Source: Oscillospiraceae bacterium (GTDB lineage Bacteria; Bacillota; Clostridia; Oscillospirales; Ruminococcaceae). Taken from it: 64,000 nucleotides of DNA. A program made the position numbers and the translations under genes. Positions 27,061 to 38,015 of the stretch are shown piece by piece. Positions within the stretch are counted from its first letter, which is position 1. Each line of letters starts with the position of its first letter. A model generated the notes under the pieces. It saw nothing but the letters and a program-made list of their open reading frames with translations, was not told where the DNA came from and searched no databases. The stretch is taken from the NCBI GenBank assembly GCA_017848115.1, contig JAGAKZ010000011.1, forward strand, positions 62,001 to 126,000, in the 5' to 3' direction.

Positions 27061-28164
27061 ATGAAATTATCATCAAAATTCAGAAAAGCCATATGCGCTG
27101 TTGTTTGTTCTGCTTTCGTTATGTCGGTAATGACATATACACCTGAATTTTTTCAGGTATCCGACGTATACGCTGACGAAAATATAGCACATGACCCAAG
27201 CCGTAATGTACAGGAAGAAGGTGTAGGAAATCCTTTTAACTATGGCGAAAGAAATACTCCTGCAAATGCTTCTGTCGAAGAAATACGCGCCATAAACCAC
27301 GCAATGTCTGTACAGGAAGTAAAATACAGCCTCTTTAAAGAAATCGATGAACACTGGGACCTCATTCGTGTACGTTTCGGACAGGAAAATCGTGAAATGG
27401 TATATGCACTTTTTCTTGGAATGGCTTCACGTGAATCCACACTTGGAGGAAATGGTGACGGTTCAGACCTTGAAACTGCTTTTTCACAAGGCTTTGGTGT
27501 AAGTTCAGCTCATGCATACGGACCACTTCAGACTGCTGTTACTGCTTTTGCTGATTGCGATCCAACTTTCATGAAAGAAGACGACGTTCCTGAAATGTTC
27601 CAGTATTCATTTACCCCCGAAAACTTTTATGACTGTATCATATCAAATCATATGGGTATAAGAAAAACTATACATTTCATAAGATCTGCTATCGTTGACT
27701 ACCAGCTTGAAGGTTATCAGATTGTACGTGCAGCACTCAAAGCGTTCAATACAGGCTGGGCAAACTACACCGGAGAAAACGATGGTTATTACAAAAACTA
27801 CCCTGATGAAATAATCGCTCTTGCACGCTGGTACTACGATGAAGGACACCTTTACGACAACGAATTTACATGGACAAACAGCCCGGCTGCCGATATATAT
27901 CGTCAGGGAAATCCATGGGACTGGTGGGGTGACGGAATACCGAGCCTTGAAGAAATATCATCACAACCACCTGCCCCCGAAAATCTCATCGGTGACATTG
28001 ATGAAAACGGCATAATCAACGCAACAGATGCTGTAAAACTCATATCTTTTATGACATGCAAGTCAACACTTACAGACTCACAACTTAAAAATGCTGACAT
28101 CAACAGCGACTCATCCGTAAATATAGCAGACATGATACTCTTAAAACAGATGCTTATCTCATAA
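27061..28164 (+). CDS. Secreted lysozyme-like (transglycosylase-like) protein with C-terminal dockerin
   Basis: The 367-residue protein has a signal peptide (1 to about 39, ending near VYADE). A globular domain (about 70-285) follows with ASRESTLGG, a candidate catalytic Glu in the E-S motif of lysozyme-like folds, then YGPLQ and a later NTGWANYTGENDGYY resembling the substrate-groove segments of soluble lytic enzymes. A complete type I dockerin lies at about 310-366 (GDIDENGIINATDAVKLI and ADINSDSSVNIADMILLKQM). It may cut peptidoglycan or a chitin-like polymer from a cellulosome-type scaffold. The catalytic assignment is inference from motif order; dockerin and export are clear. Confidence 0.75.
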   Translation: MKLSSKFRKAICAVVCSAFVMSVMTYTPEFFQVSDVYADENIAHDPSRNVQEEGVGNPFNYGERNTPANASVEEIRAINHAMSVQEVKYSLFKEIDEHWDLIRVRFGQENREMVYALFLGMASRESTLGGNGDGSDLETAFSQGFGVSSAHAYGPLQTAVTAFADCDPTFMKEDDVPEMFQYSFTPENFYDCIISNHMGIRKTIHFIRSAIVDYQLEGYQIVRAALKAFNTGWANYTGENDGYYKNYPDEIIALARWYYDEGHLYDNEFTWTNSPAADIYRQGNPWDWWGDGIPSLEEISSQPPAPENLIGDIDENGIINATDAVKLISFMTCKSTLTDSQLKNADINSDSSVNIADMILLKQMLIS

Positions 28165-28174
28165 TTAAATATAA

Positions 28175-28232
28175 AAAGCCATATACAACAAAATCGGATA
28201 ACCGTTTAAGTTTGTATATGGCTTTGTTTTTT
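28175..28232 (+). terminator. Bidirectional terminator between converging dockerin genes
   Basis: AAAGCCATATACAA pairs with TTGTATATGGCTTT around a loop of about 20 bases containing its own CGG/CCG, followed by a T run. Confidence 0.85.
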
Positions 28233-30189
28233 ATTCTATTCCCATAAGTATCTTTTTAAGTGCAATAAGATCTTTTATATTAAAGTATGTATCTCCGTCA
28301 ACATCAAAATATCCGGGTACTTCTGTTACTTCACTTTCAACCATAGTGGACTTCATCACAATAAAATCCGCTATATTGACAACACCGTCAAGATTTATAT
28401 CTCCTTTTTCATATACAACTTCTTCTTTTATTTTTACGTCCTGCGCATAATAAGCGCCTATTTCGACAGAGTTTAATGTTTTGAAAGTAAGTACATCACC
28501 TGCCTGAGCTTCTTTTGGAATACCATTTAAAATAAATACAGAAGTTTCTTCGTCAAGCCCTATAAGAGCACCTTCGTCAGTAAGTCTTGCAAGCAGAACA
28601 CCTGTTTTTTCTTCTGAAACCTTGCTCTTATCAGGTTCGGTCGGATCCTCTGTTACAGTGGCATTATACAGCGTTATTGCAGGTATCTCGGCTACACTCT
28701 GGTCAGGTTTCTTAAAATGCAGTGAACATGTTCCCTGTCCTGCAGGAACATTAAGACCTGCTACAAAGAAATATCCGACATTATTCATTGGTATAACAGA
28801 AGGCTCATTTGAAAAACCAAGGAAAAGTGTACAGTCAATTTCACTGTTATAACCCAATGAAATTCCTTTTGCAAAAATAGTATCTGTAAGTTCCTTTACT
28901 CTGTAAACGTTCATGTTTTCAGAAGAAACTCCTTCAACAGGAACAAAAGCAACAGTCTCTCCACGCTCGTACCCTTTGGTATCGTCACACAAAATAAACA
29001 ATCTTTCTTTATCTGTACTTACTTCCATGCAAGTATCACTATATGTTGCCATAACAGTCGCAAAAACATAACCTGTTTTATCAAACTTTTTAAACTCTTC
29101 TGCTTTGTATATTGTTTCTGCTTCATAGTCTGAGTTTTTCTTTATCGGCGGTGCATAACAGTGAAATTCTGTAGTATTATTTTCACCAAGCATTATTCCG
29201 ACTATATCTCCGCAATTTGATGCAAACTCAGGCATATAGTAAACTTTTACCTCTCCATAAGGCTGATATTCTTCGGGTCTGCAAAGCTGATAATACATTC
29301 CTTCGCCCAGAGAAAGTGCAACTATATCATAATAATCATATGCATCAACAGGCGCAGGCGGATCCTCTTCATCAAGCTCAGTACCAAGATTTTCAATATA
29401 CTCTGACGCATATGACCCCTTTACAGTATATGCCACAAAATCATAGTACTGATTTGGTCTGTTTTCAGGGTCGCCAACTCCGCAAAACATAAAAGCTTTT
29501 TCACCTATAAATGAAACTGACGAAGGAAGTGTGATTTCTTTAAGTCCTGTACAATAATAAAATGCACGTTCATTTATAGTCTTTACCTTATTTTTAAGAA
29601 CAACAGAAGAAAGCGAAGTACAGTCTGTAAATGCCTGCTGTCCGATAATAGTTACATTTTCACCAAAATCAACTTCTTTTAATGCACTGCAATAACTGAA
29701 CGCTATTGATGGAATAGTGTCAATTCCTGAACCTATAACCGCCTTTTCCAGAGATGAACAAAGTGAAAAACACTGATTTCCAAGTGAAGTTACCGAATCG
29801 GGAATAACTATCTCTTTAAGAGATTTGTTATCCATAAAAGCACCTTTTCCGATTTCTTTGACTGTATCAGGTATAGAAACTTTCTCAAGATCCTGCATAT
29901 GTGCAAATGCAAAATTTCCTATAAGAGTAATTCCGCTCTCTATCACTACAGATGTTATACCATCTCTGTCCCATGGTGTTGTTGACATATCTGTATACAT
30001 CGGACCTTCGCCCGAAACTGTGAGTACACCGTCTGAAATATTGTATTTCACCTTTGGACCACATTCGCCTGACAATTCAGCTGCTGCATAAATTGTGTCA
30101 ACAGAATCTGTATAACAATATGAAACAGCAGATAATGATACAGAAGCACAAAGACATAACGACAATAACACATTTGAAATTTTTATCAT
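28231..30189 (-). CDS. Secreted BspA-like leucine-rich repeat protein with C-terminal dockerin
   Basis: The 652-residue protein has a signal peptide (1 to about 33), an N-terminal beta segment (SGECGPKVKYNISDGVLTV), and about six BspA-type LRR_5 repeats (about 75-235, for example IPDTVKEIGKGAFMDNKSLK). A beta-rich region of unknown fold (about 270-530) follows, then a double dockerin (about 590-650: GDINLDGVVNIADFIVMK and FDVDGDTYFNIKDLIALKK). GGGGG is spaced for the ATG at 30189, not the one at 30198. No catalytic motif is seen; adhesion to a polysaccharide or scaffold is likely. The giant protein at 33751 carries the same LRR plus dockerin combination. Confidence 0.85.
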   Translation of the reverse strand: MIKISNVLLSLCLCASVSLSAVSYCYTDSVDTIYAAAELSGECGPKVKYNISDGVLTVSGEGPMYTDMSTTPWDRDGITSVVIESGITLIGNFAFAHMQDLEKVSIPDTVKEIGKGAFMDNKSLKEIVIPDSVTSLGNQCFSLCSSLEKAVIGSGIDTIPSIAFSYCSALKEVDFGENVTIIGQQAFTDCTSLSSVVLKNKVKTINERAFYYCTGLKEITLPSSVSFIGEKAFMFCGVGDPENRPNQYYDFVAYTVKGSYASEYIENLGTELDEEDPPAPVDAYDYYDIVALSLGEGMYYQLCRPEEYQPYGEVKVYYMPEFASNCGDIVGIMLGENNTTEFHCYAPPIKKNSDYEAETIYKAEEFKKFDKTGYVFATVMATYSDTCMEVSTDKERLFILCDDTKGYERGETVAFVPVEGVSSENMNVYRVKELTDTIFAKGISLGYNSEIDCTLFLGFSNEPSVIPMNNVGYFFVAGLNVPAGQGTCSLHFKKPDQSVAEIPAITLYNATVTEDPTEPDKSKVSEEKTGVLLARLTDEGALIGLDEETSVFILNGIPKEAQAGDVLTFKTLNSVEIGAYYAQDVKIKEEVVYEKGDINLDGVVNIADFIVMKSTMVESEVTEVPGYFDVDGDTYFNIKDLIALKKILMGIE

Positions 30190-30234
30190 ATTAATCATCC
30201 CCCGTTTATTTTACAACTTTCAAGCTTTAACTTA

Positions 30235-30392: not shown

Positions 30393-31439
30393 TTAGCTCA
30401 AACCTACGCCAATAAGATTTATAAAACTTTTTCCATCCTTATTTTTCATAAGAACTTTCACATCATGAAAAGCTTCATTTTCATCTTTATAAACAAGTCT
30501 GCTGGTTATATCGTCACGCCCGACTGACGAATAACCGGATATATTTTCAACATAGTTATTATCTATATATATATGCATCTCTCCGCAGTTTATATTATTG
30601 GTTGATTCAAACATAAGAAAAATTGACTTAAATCTTGCAGTGAATGAAACAACTGACTGTGATTCACCTGTAGATGATATGCGTTCGCTGAAAATCTCAT
30701 CTTTGGTAAAGTAACGAAATCCGGAAAAATTCATATCGCGAAAAGCTGAAAAATTTACAAACGTATACTCCTGATAACGATCTCCAAAATACGGTGTTGG
30801 CATTTCTTTTAACTCTTTATCAAATTTTTCCTTCCATATACTGTCCCACATCTTATTTATACAGGACGCTATAAACTCATGACCATATTCTGTAGGATGT
30901 CCGCTGTCAAATGAATACTCATTCCATTTGACATTTCCGCTTTCAATCTCTGTTTTCAGAATCTCACATATATCAATCACAGGCAAACCATAGTGTTCAC
31001 CAAGAGTCTTCATATACTCTCCGGAAGAAGAAAAATCTTCGTTTGCAAGGAGGACAAGTACTATAGCCGGTTTGTTTTCCATGTTATAAATCTTCCTTAC
31101 AAGTGATTCAAAAGCCAGTATGCTCTCATCATCATTGCCGTTATTAAGTGCATACTCAATAAATACAACATCTGCTGGTTCTTCCTTTATGTATTTATCA
31201 GATATTGCAAGCCCCGTAAATGCATCTGCTCCTGAAACCGCATAGTTTGAAAATGTACATCTGTTATTTTTGGTTTTCCTGCAAAAATAGTCGAAAGATA
31301 TCTTTGCAAAATTATTTTCAATATTTCCTTTTTCCAAAATATACCCCGCTGTTGCCGAACCACCAAGATATACTATTTCGACATTTCCCCCGTCAATAGC
31401 TTTTTTTGCTGTTTTTTTCAATCTGTAGTTATTTCTCAT
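30393..31439 (-). CDS. SGNH/GDSL-type hydrolase
   Basis: The 348-residue protein shows SGNH blocks: I in VYLGGSATAGYI (nucleophile Ser), III as EYALNNGND, and V in DSGHPTEYGHEF (Asp-x-x-His). About 120 C-terminal residues form a beta-rich accessory region. Family members are esterases that often deacetylate polysaccharides. No signal peptide is visible, so a cytoplasmic role or non-classical location should be considered. GGAGG is spaced for ATG 31439; an in-frame TTG at 31448 is too close. It follows the sigma factor gene on the same strand but has its own promoter. Confidence 0.82.
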   Translation of the reverse strand: MRNNYRLKKTAKKAIDGGNVEIVYLGGSATAGYILEKGNIENNFAKISFDYFCRKTKNNRCTFSNYAVSGADAFTGLAISDKYIKEEPADVVFIEYALNNGNDDESILAFESLVRKIYNMENKPAIVLVLLANEDFSSSGEYMKTLGEHYGLPVIDICEILKTEIESGNVKWNEYSFDSGHPTEYGHEFIASCINKMWDSIWKEKFDKELKEMPTPYFGDRYQEYTFVNFSAFRDMNFSGFRYFTKDEIFSERISSTGESQSVVSFTARFKSIFLMFESTNNINCGEMHIYIDNNYVENISGYSSVGRDDITSRLVYKDENEAFHDVKVLMKNKDGKSFINLIGVGLS

Positions 31440-31501
31440 CGAGAACAATCCTCCGGATTCCCTTCTAAAATTTAAGTGTTACAATTACTTCACACAGATT
31501 T

Positions 31502-31637: not shown

Positions 31638-32195
31638 TCAATAGAGTCCACGTGCTGTTATAAATTTTTTGAGATCAGCTCTGATTCTGCTCAACATAGT
31701 TTTTAATGAGCCTTCGGAAATATTATTTTTAGCGGCTATCTCCTTTATAGGAGTAAGATACCAGTATCTTTGAACAAAATATATTCTTTTGTTTTTATCC
31801 AACCCCTCAAGGAACTCATTTATAGCTGCTATAGTTTCCTGTCTTTCAACTTTGCTTTGAGCATCGTCAGACGAAGCAAAACATTCTGTAAGCTCATCTA
31901 TGGAAACTTCCATCTGACCATTGCTTCTCTTTGATGCAGTCTTTTTTTCATACATATTAATTGCCTTGTTTCTTGTTATTTTTGCAATAAACGACTTAAG
32001 TATAGTCGGAATCGTAGGCGGAATAGTTTTCCACAAGCTGAAATATGTATCATTTACACACTCTTCAGTTTCCTCTCTGTCATTTAATACATTCCTCGCA
32101 ATAGTACGGCAGTAACTGCCGTACTTTATATCAGTTTCTGATATAGCTCTCTCAGAACGTGATATGTATAATCCTATTATATCTTTATCTTCCAT
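31638..32195 (-). CDS. ECF-type RNA polymerase sigma factor
   Basis: The 185-residue protein has sigma region 2 (NDREETEECVNDTYFSLWKT, with the typical N-D-T-Y-x-x-x-W stretch) and region 4 (TPIKEIAAKNNISEGSLKTMLSRIR in part, a helix-turn-helix). GAGGG is spaced for ATG 32195; a GTG at 32207 has no site. It overlaps the end of the upstream anti-sigma-like gene by 11 bases, so the two are translationally coupled. Here the sigma gene comes second, the reverse of many ECF/anti-sigma operons. The target promoter cannot be deduced with confidence. Confidence 0.88.
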   Translation of the reverse strand: MEDKDIIGLYISRSERAISETDIKYGSYCRTIARNVLNDREETEECVNDTYFSLWKTIPPTIPTILKSFIAKITRNKAINMYEKKTASKRSNGQMEVSIDELTECFASSDDAQSKVERQETIAAINEFLEGLDKNKRIYFVQRYWYLTPIKEIAAKNNISEGSLKTMLSRIRADLKKFITARGLY

Positions 32196-33540
32196 CAGTA
32201 CCCTCACTGCTGATTATATCGGTATTTGTCAAACTATCCACTGATGTAATTTCATCTTCTGTGAAAATGGATTCAGAAACAACATTAGTTTCAGTAATTT
32301 CTTCACTTATTGTTGTTATAGTTGTGACTTCTGTTGTATTTGTAGCAGTTGTGATAATTTCCGGAATTTTTATAAAGGATAATTTCTCTTCAAACACACT
32401 GTATCTGCTGTCGATTACATCACTCATATCACGATACTCAGACGTAATAAGACTATCTCGTATACTGCAATCTTCAGAACCCTCAAAATACATAAGCGTT
32501 GAATAATCATGATAATACTTATTTTTATTGTCATGCAATATATAATGAATAGTAAAGTTATCAGGATAGTCTGTGATGCTGTTTATTTCACAGCCATAAT
32601 TATCAAATACAGCCTCATTAAGTTTTGCGACAACATCAGTACCACTGTAAAACAGTTCTGAAATATTATTTATTCTCTTTTTCTCTATCAGATCATAATT
32701 TAAGGTAGCAACTATATCAAAACAACGTTCATTTTTAGTATACGACGGCAAACCACTACTTGTCGGATTTTTCATTCCATCACTGTCAATGTATCCAAGT
32801 ACAATAGAAAGATAACCGTTTTCACATATAAGTTCTATTGCCATACCATTGGCAAGTCCCATTTCGTCAGGATTGGCAATAGAATTTGTTATTGTTCCAT
32901 TCCAGCCATCTTGATATATAGTTCCATATTTTTCGAGTTCATAAACAGGATCATGCCACTTTGATATTTCGTCCATTGCAGACTTTATATCACTATTTAT
33001 CTGCTCCTGGAAAGTTTTATCGCTTAAAAACTTGATCTTATAATAGGAGTTTTCTACTGTATAATAATCATATCCGCTGTTATCTATTTTTAGATATGAA
33101 TATTCAGGAGACGGACTATAATCTTCTGATTTTTTTAAACCTGTCCCGCTTATTGAGCCTATAGGTCTGCTGTTTATAACATATCGAGGTTTATCAGTAA
33201 CCGCAGGAGTAGTTTCTGCAGTAGTTTCTGAATTTATACCTGATACATTCTCCTCGGATATATCATATATGATTGTTGAAGAAGTAATAGTTGTATCGGA
33301 TGTTGAAGTATACGATGATGTTGTACTTTCTTTATCTTTCGACGGAATAAAATCAGGACTCTTATCTATTCTTAAAATCAAGGCAACTGCAGCGACACTG
33401 GCAGCAATACCGGCAAAGTATGTCCATGATATATTCCTTTTTTGTTGCTGTACAATCTGACAATCCGCTTCATCAATAAACTTATCATCAATCTCTCCGA
33501 TATCTTTGAGTAACTGACGTGCCTTATCATTTTTATCCAT
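32185..33540 (-). CDS. Membrane anti-sigma-like protein with RsiV-like (DUF3298-like) ectodomain
   Basis: From ATG 33540 the product has 451 residues: a short cytoplasmic part (about 1-36, LLKDIGEIDDKFIDEAD, typical of anti-sigma-like partners beside clostridial ECF genes), one membrane helix (about 38-57), a Ser/Thr-rich linker, and an ectodomain (about 150-385) containing TLNYDLIEKKRINNISELF, which resembles the core of DUF3298/RsiV. A Thr- and acid-rich tail follows. The same domain ends the giant protein encoded next door. RsiV binds lysozyme in Bacillus and is cleaved to free its sigma factor; the ligand here is unknown. The alternative start at 33558 has no better ribosome site. Confidence 0.75.
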   Translation of the reverse strand: MDKNDKARQLLKDIGEIDDKFIDEADCQIVQQQKRNISWTYFAGIAASVAAVALILRIDKSPDFIPSKDKESTTSSYTSTSDTTITSSTIIYDISEENVSGINSETTAETTPAVTDKPRYVINSRPIGSISGTGLKKSEDYSPSPEYSYLKIDNSGYDYYTVENSYYKIKFLSDKTFQEQINSDIKSAMDEISKWHDPVYELEKYGTIYQDGWNGTITNSIANPDEMGLANGMAIELICENGYLSIVLGYIDSDGMKNPTSSGLPSYTKNERCFDIVATLNYDLIEKKRINNISELFYSGTDVVAKLNEAVFDNYGCEINSITDYPDNFTIHYILHDNKNKYYHDYSTLMYFEGSEDCSIRDSLITSEYRDMSDVIDSRYSVFEEKLSFIKIPEIITTATNTTEVTTITTISEEITETNVVSESIFTEDEITSVDSLTNTDIISSEGTDGR

Positions 33541-33658
33541 ATTACACCATCTTTTCATTAAGCGCTAACTTCACAACCACATTTTCAAATACAAATTACG
33601 ACTATATAACAGATATTGCATATTTCCTTATATTCGGATAATTCACACAACTGTATTC

Positions 33659-33687
33659 ATTATATCACATAATTTTTTTAATATCAA
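33659..33687 (-). promoter_or_regulatory. Promoter of the anti-sigma/sigma operon
   Basis: TTGATA (33682-33687), 17 bases, TATAAT (33659-33664) on the minus strand. This is a housekeeping-type promoter; a second ECF-type promoter may exist but I cannot define it. Confidence 0.65.
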
Positions 33688-33727
33688 TATCAGAAACAGC
33701 AGATTTTCAAAGTAACTGTTTCTGATA
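33688..33727 (-). terminator. Hairpin between the giant gene and the sigma operon
   Basis: TATCAGAAACAG (33688-33699) and CTGTTTCTGATA (33716-33727) are perfect inverted 12-mers. The T tract on the minus side is weak, so it could be an attenuator or a leaky terminator. Confidence 0.5.
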
Positions 33728-33750
33728 CAAAGTTCGTATAGAAGTTTAGC

Positions 33751-36700
33751 TTATAATAATTTTTTTATATATTTACGATTTAATTTATCAGGAAAAATAA
33801 CTCTTTCAACCATACCTTTATTTGTATATATCTTCACTATATTTGTACCTAGATTTATATCTTCAAGATAATTTTCCCCTTCGTCATATCCTTTAAAATC
33901 ATCTCCGAGAATATCTGAAATATATACTCTTTCACCCGTTTGAGGATCATACATATTATACTTTTGGCCCACACTACCTTCATGATTATTTACATATAAA
34001 ACATTAAATCTGGTATCACTCGTTTTTATTATTATTCTTTCCGGATTTTCAGGATCTTCTTGTCTTTTCATAGCATCTTCATAAATCTTATCATAGATCT
34101 TCTGATGCATTTCTATTTCTTCCACTGTATGGAACCGTGAACCTTCGATCCACTGTCTTTTCACACCATCTTTTTCTACGTTTACAATATTCCATTCAAG
34201 ATAATCACACTCTTCAATATCCTCAAGTTCAACTAGTGTACTGATATCAAAATATTCACCTGTTACCATATAATCAGGAGTGTAATAGGATGTATAGTCT
34301 ACATAATGTATGTCATCTCTATCAATAAAAATATGTGAAAGAGTGAATTTATCCACTTCTCCTGTCAGATAACCAAAACCTGTTTTTACATCAATATTAT
34401 CAGACAATTGAATACATACATTTTCATTTATTATCGGAACATAGTCTATACCCTTGTAAAACAGATCAGAAAATTTTTCTATTTTTGACCTATCAATAAG
34501 ATTATAATTAAGTATTGCCAGTTTTTCTGTGTCTTTTGCTTTATAAGATTTAGCATCATCATATATAACTACTGACATATAACCATTTATTATTTCTACA
34601 GATAATGCAGTCTGTTCAATATCATATTTTTCTTTAACGATTTTAACAGCTTTACTTATATCACTATTTATGACACTTTCAAATTCCTTATCTTTCAAGA
34701 AATCTATGCCTAAGCAATCCGTATCAGAATATGTTGAATATTTAGTTGATGGAATATAATCTTTGGCTTTTTCCTTACCCGTACCCTTTGATACATAAAC
34801 TTCTGATGCATCAGAAATATCGGTCTGTCCTGCCGGTATATAACCACCTTCAAGTACAAGCTGCTGACCCTCTTTTGAAACTGCCCATTGTGTAAATTTT
34901 ACTGTTTCTTCTGAAGCTTCATTTGTGTAGAGTATGTACATATCATTTAAAAGTGGATAACTGTTATCAGATATTGTTTCATTTGAAGGTTTTATTCCAT
35001 CAACTGATATAAATTTTACATTTTCCATATTTTCAAGCATCTTTGCCGCATTTGAGTATACTGTGTATCCTATCGCTAATGACGAATTATTATTGGCCGC
35101 AACCTTACTTGTCAACATTGATATAGTTGTAAAACATTGAGATTTTGGTACATCTGCCAAACTATAACCATTCATAAATTTTGTCATATAATTTTGGCTT
35201 AGTGAATCACTATTTCTCTGATACACAACAATTTCTTTGTTATTTCCTCCGACTTCTGACCAGTTTGTTATCTTACCGGAAAATATATCTCTTATCTGCT
35301 CCTGCGTAAGAGAATTAACGGGATTATCTTTACTTACCATAAACACAAGCCCTTCTTTTGCTACCGGAGTAAATATGAGTTCCACCCCTGCATCACTTGC
35401 TATTTTTTTCTGTTGTTCTGATATCATATCTGTAAACACAAGATCATTTTCTCCACTTAACAGAAGTTCAAAAGACTCATTTGACTTATTGTGACTTACG
35501 AAATCTGTAGCTTGTGAACATGATATTCCAAGCATATCAGCTTTAAGAACTGTTTCAAGAGGTACCGCAGAAAAATTCCCATCCATTTTAGGCATATTAG
35601 TATTATCCCACAAAGTAATATCATTCATAAGAGCAAGTTTAAGTTTGGCAACATCAAATATATCTATTTTCCCATCAGTCTTTACATCAAATCTGTACTC
35701 GGAATATTCAATACCTCTCCCATTACCTACCAGATATTTATATAAATCAAAAATATCCGCAGCTGTAACTACACCATCATTATTTATATCTCCACGTAAA
35801 CCTTCTGATTCATTATAATATTCATCTTTACAAAAATGCAAATTTATATTCTCGTACAAATCTTCTGTTCCATGAATTTTTTCCCAATCATTTTTATTTC
35901 CTGCGTAATATACATCTGTCAATGAATGAAAATATGAACTCAAATAATTGTTTTTATAAAATTCTTTCAGGCTTTCAGGCACTGTTAATTTTTCTATATA
36001 TTTTTCGTCACCAAAAGCACCATGATCTATTGATTCTACACCGTCTAAAATTGCATAAGAAGTTTCTTTTTTGGATGCCGGATATTTTATAAGCTTCGTT
36101 TTTTCTTTATTGAACAACACACCATCAACACTTGCATAATTTGAATTTGTAGGTGAAACATATATTGATTCAAGAGATTCACAATTTATATCTTCGATTT
36201 TTGTAATATTTTCTGAAATATCAAGAGTTTTAAGTGAACTGCAATTGTCAAAAACGCCTTTCTCCAGAACATCAATATATCTCGGTAAAATCAGTTCTTT
36301 CAGATATTTATTGCCCACTTTATTAATAGTACGAACTCTATCCGGAACATAATATCTCTCAATATTAGCTTCTGGCGGATAATATATAAGTTTAGTTACA
36401 CCTTTATTGAACAACACACTGCCAATATTTTCGTATTCCATATTTTCTTTATCTACAGTTACTGAAGATAAAAAACTACCATCAAATGCATCGTCATCAA
36501 TTTCTACCGTTTGTGCAGGAATGCTGACTTCCTTTATTTTTTTACATCCAAAAATAACTTTACTTCCTATTTGCTTAACATTATCATGCAGATTCAGTTC
36601 CTCCAGCGAACTACAACCTCTGAAAAGATCGTTTGAAATAGACGTTACTTTATCAGGAATAAAGATATTCTTCAGAGAACTGCACCCTTCAAATGCAGCA

Positions 36701-37320
36701 TCATAAATTTTATTTACCGTTTTTGGTATATTTATTTTTTCAAGTGAACTACACCCATAAAACGCTTTTTTATCTATTGTCTCAACATTACTCATGACAA
36801 TGCTTTCCAGTACCGAACAACCTTCAAACAAATTTGAACTTATTATTTTTATGTTTTTTGGAATCTCAATAGATTTAAGTGATGAACAACCTTTAAAAGT
36901 GCCTTCTCCAATATCTGACACACTTTCAGGTAAATCAATTTTCTCTAACCGTGCACAATCAGCAAATACATAATCTCCAATTGCGTCGATACCATCAAGG
37001 ATTTCAACAGACGTGAGAGATACTGCTCCATTAAATGAATTACTTCCAATTCTCTCTACATAATCCCGGATAATTACCTTTTTTATGAGATGCATATACT
37101 TATCCCATGGTGGTTTACTGAATGCGTCATAATCATCCATCACCCCATCACCTCTTATCGTAAGCGTTCCCTCAGATTCAAACGCCCATAAGAGTTCTCC
37201 GCAAGACCCTTCTACTGAAAAACTGGCAAACACAGACTTTTCTTCAAATTGTGACATAACAGACATATTTGTTATTAATACAGCTGCTAACAAAAGTGTC
37301 TTCCATTTCCTTCTCTTCAT
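33751..37320 (-). CDS. Giant secreted LRR - dockerin - PstS-like - RsiV-like domain protein
   Basis: This 1189-residue protein has a signal peptide (1 to about 33), an N-terminal BspA beta segment, and more than ten LRR_5 repeats (to about 490). An internal double dockerin lies at about 510-568 (GDINNDGVVTAADIFDLYKY and FDVKTDGKIDIFDVAKLK). A PstS/periplasmic-binding domain follows (about 582-830; LVFTDMISEQQKKIA, FMVSKDNPVNSLT, IFSGKITNWSEVGG, VVYQRN). The C-terminal DUF3298/RsiV-like domain (about 860-1185; LNYNLIDRSKIEKFSDLF) also forms the ectodomain of the adjacent anti-sigma-like protein. GGAGG is spaced for ATG 37320; ATG 37335 lies upstream of that site. The domain order is unfamiliar to me. 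Likely role: extracellular sensing or capture linked to the neighbouring sigma pathway. Confidence 0.8.
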   Translation of the reverse strand: MKRRKWKTLLLAAVLITNMSVMSQFEEKSVFASFSVEGSCGELLWAFESEGTLTIRGDGVMDDYDAFSKPPWDKYMHLIKKVIIRDYVERIGSNSFNGAVSLTSVEILDGIDAIGDYVFADCARLEKIDLPESVSDIGEGTFKGCSSLKSIEIPKNIKIISSNLFEGCSVLESIVMSNVETIDKKAFYGCSSLEKINIPKTVNKIYDAAFEGCSSLKNIFIPDKVTSISNDLFRGCSSLEELNLHDNVKQIGSKVIFGCKKIKEVSIPAQTVEIDDDAFDGSFLSSVTVDKENMEYENIGSVLFNKGVTKLIYYPPEANIERYYVPDRVRTINKVGNKYLKELILPRYIDVLEKGVFDNCSSLKTLDISENITKIEDINCESLESIYVSPTNSNYASVDGVLFNKEKTKLIKYPASKKETSYAILDGVESIDHGAFGDEKYIEKLTVPESLKEFYKNNYLSSYFHSLTDVYYAGNKNDWEKIHGTEDLYENINLHFCKDEYYNESEGLRGDINNDGVVTAADIFDLYKYLVGNGRGIEYSEYRFDVKTDGKIDIFDVAKLKLALMNDITLWDNTNMPKMDGNFSAVPLETVLKADMLGISCSQATDFVSHNKSNESFELLLSGENDLVFTDMISEQQKKIASDAGVELIFTPVAKEGLVFMVSKDNPVNSLTQEQIRDIFSGKITNWSEVGGNNKEIVVYQRNSDSLSQNYMTKFMNGYSLADVPKSQCFTTISMLTSKVAANNNSSLAIGYTVYSNAAKMLENMENVKFISVDGIKPSNETISDNSYPLLNDMYILYTNEASEETVKFTQWAVSKEGQQLVLEGGYIPAGQTDISDASEVYVSKGTGKEKAKDYIPSTKYSTYSDTDCLGIDFLKDKEFESVINSDISKAVKIVKEKYDIEQTALSVEIINGYMSVVIYDDAKSYKAKDTEKLAILNYNLIDRSKIEKFSDLFYKGIDYVPIINENVCIQLSDNIDVKTGFGYLTGEVDKFTLSHIFIDRDDIHYVDYTSYYTPDYMVTGEYFDISTLVELEDIEECDYLEWNIVNVEKDGVKRQWIEGSRFHTVEEIEMHQKIYDKIYEDAMKRQEDPENPERIIIKTSDTRFNVLYVNNHEGSVGQKYNMYDPQTGERVYISDILGDDFKGYDEGENYLEDINLGTNIVKIYTNKGMVERVIFPDKLNRKYIKKLL

Positions 37321-37546
37321 TTTTTCCTCCAACATTTTTTAGTAAAATAATATTTTTCTTGAATATTCAACTTCTCACAATCATAATAAAAAAATATATT
37401 ATCTTCATTTCATGTTACACTTATGCTCAAAGTTTTTTTTAATATCTGACATATCCAAAAATTTTATCACATAATTATTTCTCATAAAAAATGTTTCCTC
37501 ATATCCCCTTAAGATTTAAAATAATATTAAAAATCCACATAAAGTT

Positions 37547-37575
37547 ATTATAACACAAAACGAGTTTCAAAACAA
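37547..37575 (-). promoter_or_regulatory. Promoter of the giant LRR-dockerin gene
   Basis: TTGTTT (37570-37575), 17 bases, TATAAT (37547-37552) on the minus strand, leaving a leader of about 220 bases. Confidence 0.55.
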
Positions 37576-38015
37576 AGACTTTTAGAAATTTTCATTTTTT
37601 TAATCGCTCAAATATCATTTCACCTAAAGCACTACTAAAATATATTTACATTTTTAACCTATACTATTTTTCTCGTGACACTTTGTTATTGTTACGTCCA
37701 TAAAAATTTAGCCATATTATTATCTGTAATATCTGATTTTTTTAATTTATATTTTTAAGATGCATTTTACAAATTATAATAGTCAAGTGTACTAATATAA
37801 ATCACCTCCGTTTTTGCAACATAAACCACTACATCTGTTAATGCTCTATTATGTTGCTAAAAATAAATTTTCTGTTACTATTTCTCATATTCTCTCCTTT
37901 CATTAGCGTCATATTTTTAAAACAATATTTTTTCCTTAAATATCGTTTCATAATAAAAGACAGAATAAAAATAAAAAGGTTACAAGTTTTTTTAAAAAAT
38001 TTTTTAATAAAAATA
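37576..38015. other. AT-rich gene-free stretch with an orphan ribosome site and inverted repeat
   Basis: No convincing gene is present; a plus-strand frame at 37851-38063 has a composition expected of random AT-rich DNA. On the minus strand a nine-base inverted repeat (37816-37824 with 37850-37858) is followed by a near-perfect ribosome site GGAGGTGAT (37801-37809). The only frame after it is a 14-codon one from a TTG 14 bases away. It may be the remains of a small gene or leader peptide. Confidence 0.4.

Follow-up and report, generated by a model that had tools for sequence, protein, structure and literature searches.

A predicted RsiV-fold sensor domain of an ECF sigma factor system in an Oscillospiraceae bacterium recurs on exported dockerin proteins whose genes probably have a common promoter

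Gene content of the sigma factor locus

The stretch of DNA analysed here, hereafter the window, comprises 64,000 nucleotides of an Oscillospiraceae bacterium genome (GenBank assembly GCA_017848115.1, contig JAGAKZ010000011.1, positions 62,001 to 126,000). On its minus strand lie three genes that encode, in order of transcription, a giant exported protein, a membrane protein that appears to be an anti-sigma factor and, last, a sigma factor of the extracytoplasmic function (ECF) type. The ectodomain of the anti-sigma factor, here called ECTO, recurs on the giant protein, is predicted to have the fold of RsiV, and is found on further exported proteins whose genes have an ECF-type promoter in common. 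We propose that the sigma and anti-sigma factors form a switch that probably controls proteins bearing copies of its own sensor domain, and put the probability of this reading at roughly 0.6.

The sigma factor (31638..32195, minus strand; 185 aa with the ATG at 32195 as start) contains Sigma70_r2 and r4_2 domains above the Pfam cut-off; its best match is TIGR02937 (sigma70-ECF, 72.5 bits), and no SigI model is among the best 25 of 58 families. Its start codon overlaps the stop codon of the preceding gene by 11 nt. That gene (32185..33558, minus strand) encodes 457 aa, arranged as a short cytoplasmic segment that contains the motif LLKDIGEIDDKFIDEA, a single membrane helix (residues 43-62, 33373..33432, minus strand, from a Kyte-Doolittle scan), a Ser/Thr-rich linker and the ectodomain (ECTO, residues 138-383, 32410..33147, minus strand). 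We infer that it acts as an anti-sigma factor from its position beside the sigma gene, its hydrophobic helix and an N-terminal part that is matched in related operons. The Pfam scan found no domain in it above cut-off, with RsgI_N absent from the matches up to E 1, and the NCBIfam scan returned nothing useful.

The giant protein (33751..37335, minus strand; 1194 aa) is supported by Pfam and BLAST matches and by a counterpart in a related genome, G010, which has the same architecture and is 55% identical over 1233 columns. A GGAGG directly before the ATG at 37320 favours that codon as its start. From the N-terminus, it consists of a signal peptide (signal peptides and lipoprotein boxes were assigned by eye throughout), BspA-type leucine-rich repeats (LRR_5, 1e-64; approximate limits 35926..37158), a type I dockerin (Dockerin_1, 4.9e-9; residues 515-569, 35629..35793), a PstS-like PBP_like_2 domain (PF12849, 4.3e-29; residues 613-835, 34831..35499), ECTO (residues 851-1036, 34228..34785) and a C-terminal tail (residues 1045-1194, 33754..34203) that stands behind ECTO in many proteins combining the two preceding domains (PBP-ECTO proteins), all on the minus strand. 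The LRR-dockerin-PstS-like architecture proposed in a first-pass annotation of the sequence was therefore borne out by Pfam. The domain before ECTO is that of PstS-type phosphate-binding proteins (PF12849, TIGR02136) but differs from them in standing on a dockerin protein, in not reaching the PstS subfamily score (127.5 bits against the TIGR02136 cut-off of 206.6) and in its altered motif, DGNFSAVPLE, which is DGSTSAIPLE in most relatives. The window sigma factor has relatives of 94.6% identity in G010, 76.8% in G001 and 57% in G009.

A domain shared by the anti-sigma factor and the giant protein

BLASTP aligned residues 138-383 of the anti-sigma factor with residues 851-1036 of the giant at 28% identity (E 6e-16 for this pair), and the Smith-Waterman score of 207 compares with 45 ± 7.6 for shuffled sequences, the largest of which (n = 500) reached 91. 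Judged by these alignments, the two regions are homologous. The similarity had been noticed in the first-pass annotation, and the residue pair cited there, TLNYDLIEKKRINNISELF with ILNYNLIDRSKIEKFSDLF, does align within the BLASTP match, and so do FTIHYILHDN and FTLSHIFIDR; the similar region does lie in the C-terminal part of the giant, but extends over about 190 residues and not about 320. Directly before ECTO, both proteins have a stretch of the form GTG-x-x-K-x-x-DY-x-P. The last ~150 residues of the giant, its tail, have no match in the window anti-sigma factor; a 538-aa anti-sigma factor of G006, which contains ECTO, does match the tail (E 3e-5). The idea that the tail is a second copy of the RsiV fold was rejected, as its profile matched ECTO with E 0.43 and a reversed control gave E 0.30.

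The same genome encodes two more ECTO proteins, one a dockerin-PBP protein of 997 aa (contig C39), the other made up of ECTO only (C4). The latter looks like a lipoprotein, its signal peptide being encoded in a different frame in this assembly; here the reading frame of both the C4 gene and the C25 gene described below (loci L118 and L091) is interrupted by a stop or changes past the signal peptide. Recent duplication of the giant ECTO from that of the anti-sigma factor was considered and dropped, since a tree of 37 rows groups six of seven anti-sigma ECTOs with ECTO-only proteins, apart from the PBP-ECTO proteins; the seventh (L068) has a long branch and falls outside the group. The split looks old, though not firmly so, with support of only 90/62.

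Predicted fold of the domain

Both predicted ECTO structures match the RsiV/DUF3298 fold. When the giant model (pLDDT 86.6) was compared with 990 chains, the four top entries were 3cyg (8.6), 5jen (8.0), 4e72 (7.5) and 3s5t (7.5), of which 5jen is the RsiV-lysozyme structure. The sequence profile A4, searched against all PDB sequences at a limit of E 10, gave 3cyg_A (E 0.072) as its sole match. PdaC (PF13739, which we take to be DUF4163, the N-terminal half of RsiV) was the only Pfam family matched by more than one of 23 ECTO members, weakly and in 3 of the 23 (best E 0.021). These matches lie far below the cut-off, and unlike PdaC itself, the scanned proteins matched no deacetylase domain.

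No scanned ECTO member reached the Pfam cut-off for DUF3298 (PF11738) or PdaC; at that cut-off the giant and the anti-sigma factor match neither, a PF11738 search of the genome found none at E 1e-5, and Foldseek alone returned nothing significant for either model. The assignment is based on VIA-align, the weak sequence profile and a published list of structural neighbours: in excerpts of the RsiV paper (PMC5014341), 3CYG, 3S5T and 4E72 are said to resemble RsiV in structure. Taken together, these results indicate that the ECTO domains of the giant and the anti-sigma factor almost certainly share the RsiV fold. The relation to RsiV/DUF3298 suggested at first pass thus holds at the level of fold, but not at that of Pfam cut-offs, and structure prediction gave the same RsiV-like fold for the two domains, not different ones.

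An ECF-type promoter common to ECTO genes

Upstream of the giant gene lies the ECF-type promoter TGTAACCTTTTT-N9-CTGTC (37959..37984, minus strand), at a distance of 649 nt from the open reading frame's first start codon (59 nt in G010). The motif was defined from the sequences upstream of the giant gene and of the C39-type gene, each in two species. The 3.34 Mb genome of the window holds five sites, four exact and one with a single mismatch, as compared with none in the reversed control at up to two mismatches. Behind them stand the genes of the giant, the C39 dockerin-PBP-ECTO protein, the C4 ECTO protein (the site with the mismatch) and two lipoprotein-like proteins (C25, C103). All five products look exported, and all three ECTO genes found in this genome other than that of the anti-sigma factor are included. 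The C4, C25 and C103 sites played no part in defining the motif and are independent matches; a given gene would have a site within 700 nt by chance with a probability of about 0.0005. The C-terminal 60-80 residues of the C25 protein recur in the C39 protein and in other PBP-ECTO proteins.

Comparable sites occur in related genomes. Those of G010 precede the giant, the C39 counterpart (99% identical) and, twice, the C103 counterpart (58%), while those of G001 precede the C39 counterpart (66%), a C25 relative (40%, one mismatch) and the orthologous anti-sigma gene (two mismatches), the fourth G001 site preceding no such gene. In G009, the gene of a sigma factor 57% identical to that of the window (C111) begins 87 nt downstream of TGTAACCTTTTTGAATACTTCGGGTC, and this promoter is alike in 58 of 63 bases to that of a dockerin-PBP-ECTO gene (dockerin and PBP confirmed by Pfam); the G009 form has GGGTC in place of CTGTC. 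The motif also precedes a second G009 sigma gene (C66, 54%) and a sigma fragment in G007 (L095), where the shortened gene lies beside a transposase-like gene. Two other paralogs of the window sigma in its own genome have promoters of similar build, TGTTAC-N17-CGTC. The common ECF-type promoter makes a regulatory connection between the sensor and the ECTO genes likely.

The anti-sigma/sigma operon of the window is preceded by a SigA-like promoter, TTGATA-N17-TATAAT (33659..33687, minus strand). Because the SigA-like scan overall was no richer than shuffles (41 vs 41.1), the evidence for this promoter is its conservation in G010. A hairpin between the giant and anti-sigma genes (33687..33728, minus strand; minimum free energy -17.5 kcal/mol, z -5.6) touches the -35 box with its 3' end, and may act either as a terminator lacking a T run or as an operator; its G010 counterpart (L044 8986-9060; -21.2, z -4.4) has changed stem bases.

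Two other promoter patterns were abandoned. One, a base too long, gave four sites against one in the control. The other, CTTTGTTTT-N16-TATAATAA before the giant gene and a GDSL gene (two exact sites; six with up to three mismatches vs 1.7 expected), seemingly lies inside a decayed copy of the start of the GDSL gene. This apparent copy of the promoter and first codons (MRNNY...) of the gene at 30393-31448 occupies window positions 37335-37577 on the minus strand, between the ECF-type promoter and the giant, and was not seen before the giant of G010.

The sigma factor that recognises these sites is probably that of the window or a close paralog. A different ECF sigma factor might instead drive all five, the anti-sigma factor being a mere neighbour with a common family domain. 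The sigma gene on C4 is a candidate: it and the C4 ECTO gene are divergent, all three species with sites carry it, and the motif is missing from the window sigma operon. Sigma factors of the C4 type (65-67% identity) are, however, also present in G005 and G007, where no site precedes an ECTO gene, and in G009, which has only the GGGTC form. The site before the orthologous anti-sigma gene of G001, the promoter that a G009 sigma of the window's own subfamily shares with a PBP-ECTO gene, and the similarly built promoters of the two paralogs all point back to the window subfamily, and we consider control by another sigma factor unlikely.

Comparison with known anti-sigma systems

The closest structural parallel is SigV/RsiV of Bacillus subtilis, which senses lysozyme and which, in the excerpts of the literature used here (PMC5014341, PMC4183432), likewise places a single-pass anti-sigma factor beside an ECF sigma factor. 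The window protein combines the short cytoplasmic N-terminus, single membrane helix, extracellular domain and adjacent ECF sigma gene of an RsiV-type anti-sigma factor, with an ectodomain of the same predicted fold. Further marks of the RsiV type are a site for signal-peptidase cleavage behind the membrane helix and, with residues S169, P259 and Y261 of RsiV, the binding and inhibition of lysozyme. It differs in that the anti-sigma gene precedes the sigma gene, in the lack of a Pfam-level match, and in the exported copies fused to dockerin, PBP_like_2 and leucine-rich repeats. According to the same excerpts, RsiV is not only the sensor of lysozyme but also its inhibitor, as would suit exported copies that capture the ligand, and other structures similar to RsiV are not encoded near ECF sigma factors (PMC5014341).

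The nearest precedent for the logic of a mirrored sensor, by analogy, is SigI6/RsgI6 and Xyn10D of Clostridium thermocellum. There, as described in the part of PMC4711584 drawn on here, the sensor of the anti-sigma factor, a GH10 module, is homologous (57% identical) to Xyn10D, a dockerin protein of the same sigma's regulon whose promoter SigI6 activates. The present system resembles it in having a sensor module common to cellulosomal proteins, whose membership of the regulon we infer; it pairs an ECF sigma factor with an RsiV-fold module where the other has a SigI-type sigma factor, an RsgI protein and a glycoside hydrolase module. In the literature that was searched, no paper on this arrangement of sensor and exported copies was found.

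This precedent raises the possibility that ECTO binds a plant or microbial glycan, which the anti-sigma factor reports while the exported dockerin proteins aid attachment of the cellulosome. The dockerins on the exported proteins and the nearby Cel124-dockerin gene would fit such a role. The fold, on the other hand, looks RsiV-like, the sigma factor is of ECF type, and Pfam found no carbohydrate-binding or glycoside hydrolase module in five PBP-ECTO proteins of the genus and one from a Lachnospiraceae genome. Glycan sensing of this kind therefore seems improbable. The Cel124-dockerin gene, together with an LRR_5-dockerin gene identified by Pfam, occupies window positions 27061-30198, downstream of the system.

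Distribution and gene linkage

A four-sequence ECTO profile was used to survey 120 genomes including that of the window, and matched nine, all of the same genus and making up nine of its 11 examined genomes. When 391 genomes were sampled from the class, with no further one of the genus among the listed members, a single other genome matched, weakly. The copies among the matches listed belong to Ruminococcus and Oscillospiraceae metagenome-assembled genomes (MAGs), one Lachnospiraceae MAG and one distant Ruminococcus MAG; the Lachnospiraceae MAG has three lipoprotein-like PBP-ECTO genes in tandem (L079 3467-11110). Three kinds of locus were seen: PBP-ECTO proteins, most with a dockerin; anti-sigma factors beside a sigma gene; and ECTO-only proteins of ~430-490 aa, which look like lipoproteins in all cases where the sequence includes the start.

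In G010 (the SIG549 MAG), one of the 10 other examined genomes of the genus, the giant, anti-sigma and sigma genes are arranged as in the window and are followed downstream, again in the window's order, by a GDSL-sized gene, an LRR-dockerin gene and a Cel124-sized gene with a dockerin. In G005, one PBP-ECTO gene directly precedes a sigma and anti-sigma gene and a second follows a sigma/anti-sigma pair, while in G009 a cluster of PBP-ECTO genes stands behind such a pair. PBP-ECTO loci were counted after manual grouping, leaving out one fragment (G005:C298, a 3.3-kb contig). A sigma/anti-sigma pair was no more than ~4 kb away in five of the 14, where the density of sigma genes in the window's genome would predict 6.7% (p 0.0016); merging orthologous loci leaves three of seven (p 0.009). 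Two of the linked sigma factors (G005 C57, G009 C13) are only distant relatives of that in the window. The linkage proposed at first pass thus extends to other genomes, but only in part: nine of the 10 lack the three-gene order.

The giant could also be a co-receptor, displayed through its dockerin and leucine-rich repeats. It would bind ligand by its PBP domain and, through ECTO-ECTO contact, either pass this ligand on to the anti-sigma factor or form a pair with that protein, activating the signal. The same domain is present on both partners, whose genes are adjacent in two species, the PBP and LRR modules are added only on the exported one, and PBP-ECTO genes (21 by hand count) outnumber ECTO anti-sigma factors. 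The ECTO-ECTO contact is, however, hypothetical, and RsiV binds its ligand directly, according to the co-crystal described in the excerpts (PMC5014341). Furthermore, the ECTO anti-sigma genes of G001, G006, G008 and G004 adjoin no PBP-ECTO gene, and the matches from the last three genomes include no PBP-ECTO gene at all. A co-receptor is less likely still than glycan sensing.

Related sigma systems

Anti-sigma factors of related sigma factors keep the N-terminal motif and differ in their ectodomains, which also occur on apparently exported proteins. At G009 C66 (L136 2881-6501), where the sigma promoter is TGTAAC-N16-TGTC, the sigma gene is followed by an LRR_5 anti-sigma gene and then by an LRR_5-dockerin gene, whose products are 44% identical over 252 residues; because LRR_5 proteins are frequent in the loci examined, this sharing is weaker evidence than the adjacency. 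The anti-sigma factors of G009 C111, G007 and G005 have a domain in common with C25-type lipoproteins and a dockerin protein. In the window's genome, the C6 and C80 anti-sigma factors (L137, L138) share ~1000 residues, including a solute-binding module, with a lipoprotein-like protein of 1042 aa on C105 (L141 14813-17941). Three of the eight subfamily members in this genome (window, C6 and C80) have an apparently exported homolog within the fetched loci; for the other five, those loci held only anti-sigma-like proteins or none, no genome-wide search having been made with each.

A genus-wide design may be imagined in which a common sigma-binding N-terminus is combined with interchangeable ectodomains (the RsiV fold, LRR_5, the lipoprotein domain, the large solute-binding module), and each sigma factor makes exported copies of its sensor's ectodomain, in many cases bound to the cellulosome, as soluble competitors that set the threshold and end the signal. 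We regard this extension as doubtful. If true, the cellulosome would be part of a signalling circuit.

Proposed mechanism and its weighing

The proposed switch was built on the fold and the common promoter, which were computed, with ligand, cleavage, cognate sigma factor and feedback added by reasoning. An extracellular ligand would bind the RsiV-fold ectodomain of the anti-sigma factor, which would be cleaved, as RsiV is, to free the sigma factor; this would then transcribe the giant, C39 and other ECTO genes. The exported proteins, held on the cellulosome by their dockerins or on the membrane by lipid, would bind the same ligand and most likely capture or neutralise it, ending the signal. 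That exported ECTO binds the same class of ligand as the anti-sigma ectodomain has, in our estimate, an even chance. Neutralisation is the simplest role, because RsiV at a 1:1 ratio inhibits lysozyme almost entirely (excerpts of PMC5014341); we advance neutralising feedback, rather than another role, only tentatively.

Several observations weigh against this mirrored-sensor switch. The window sigma operon has a SigA-like promoter and lacks the ECF-type motif. In G008, G004, G006 and G002 control counts equal or exceed the promoter sites, and in G001 they come close (3 vs 4), so that two-mismatch sites by themselves are weak evidence. G001, whose sigma factor is 77% identical to that of the window, has the sigma and anti-sigma genes without an adjoining giant. 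The first-pass proposal of a sensing system joining a scaffold-attached protein, as putative co-receptor, decoy or competitor for the ligand, to ECF control accordingly keeps its regulatory link, likely from the shared promoter, but not a constant partnership of the three genes. As regards lysozyme as the ligand, Rv1980c, of the wider class, did not co-purify with it, according to the same excerpts (PMC5014341). Finally, nine of the 14 PBP-ECTO loci are not beside a sigma gene, which, in a genus rich in ECF pairs and multi-domain secreted proteins, would suit ordinary domain shuffling, with ECTO as a common extracellular spacer and neither adjacency nor promoter meaning anything for signalling; the excess of linked loci and the concentration of promoter sites on genes for ECTO and apparently exported proteins make this a poor explanation.

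Implications

RsiV set the precedent of an anti-sigma factor that is both the receptor and the inhibitor of a host enzyme, with no ECF link for the structures that its authors listed as similar. Here, the predicted RsiV fold is found on anti-sigma factors and on dockerin-bearing and lipoprotein-like proteins with a common ECF-type promoter. With this system one can test concretely whether soluble versions of a sensor domain are made by bacteria for feedback; it may also give access to the regulation of some of the numerous ruminococcal dockerin proteins that lack a known function.

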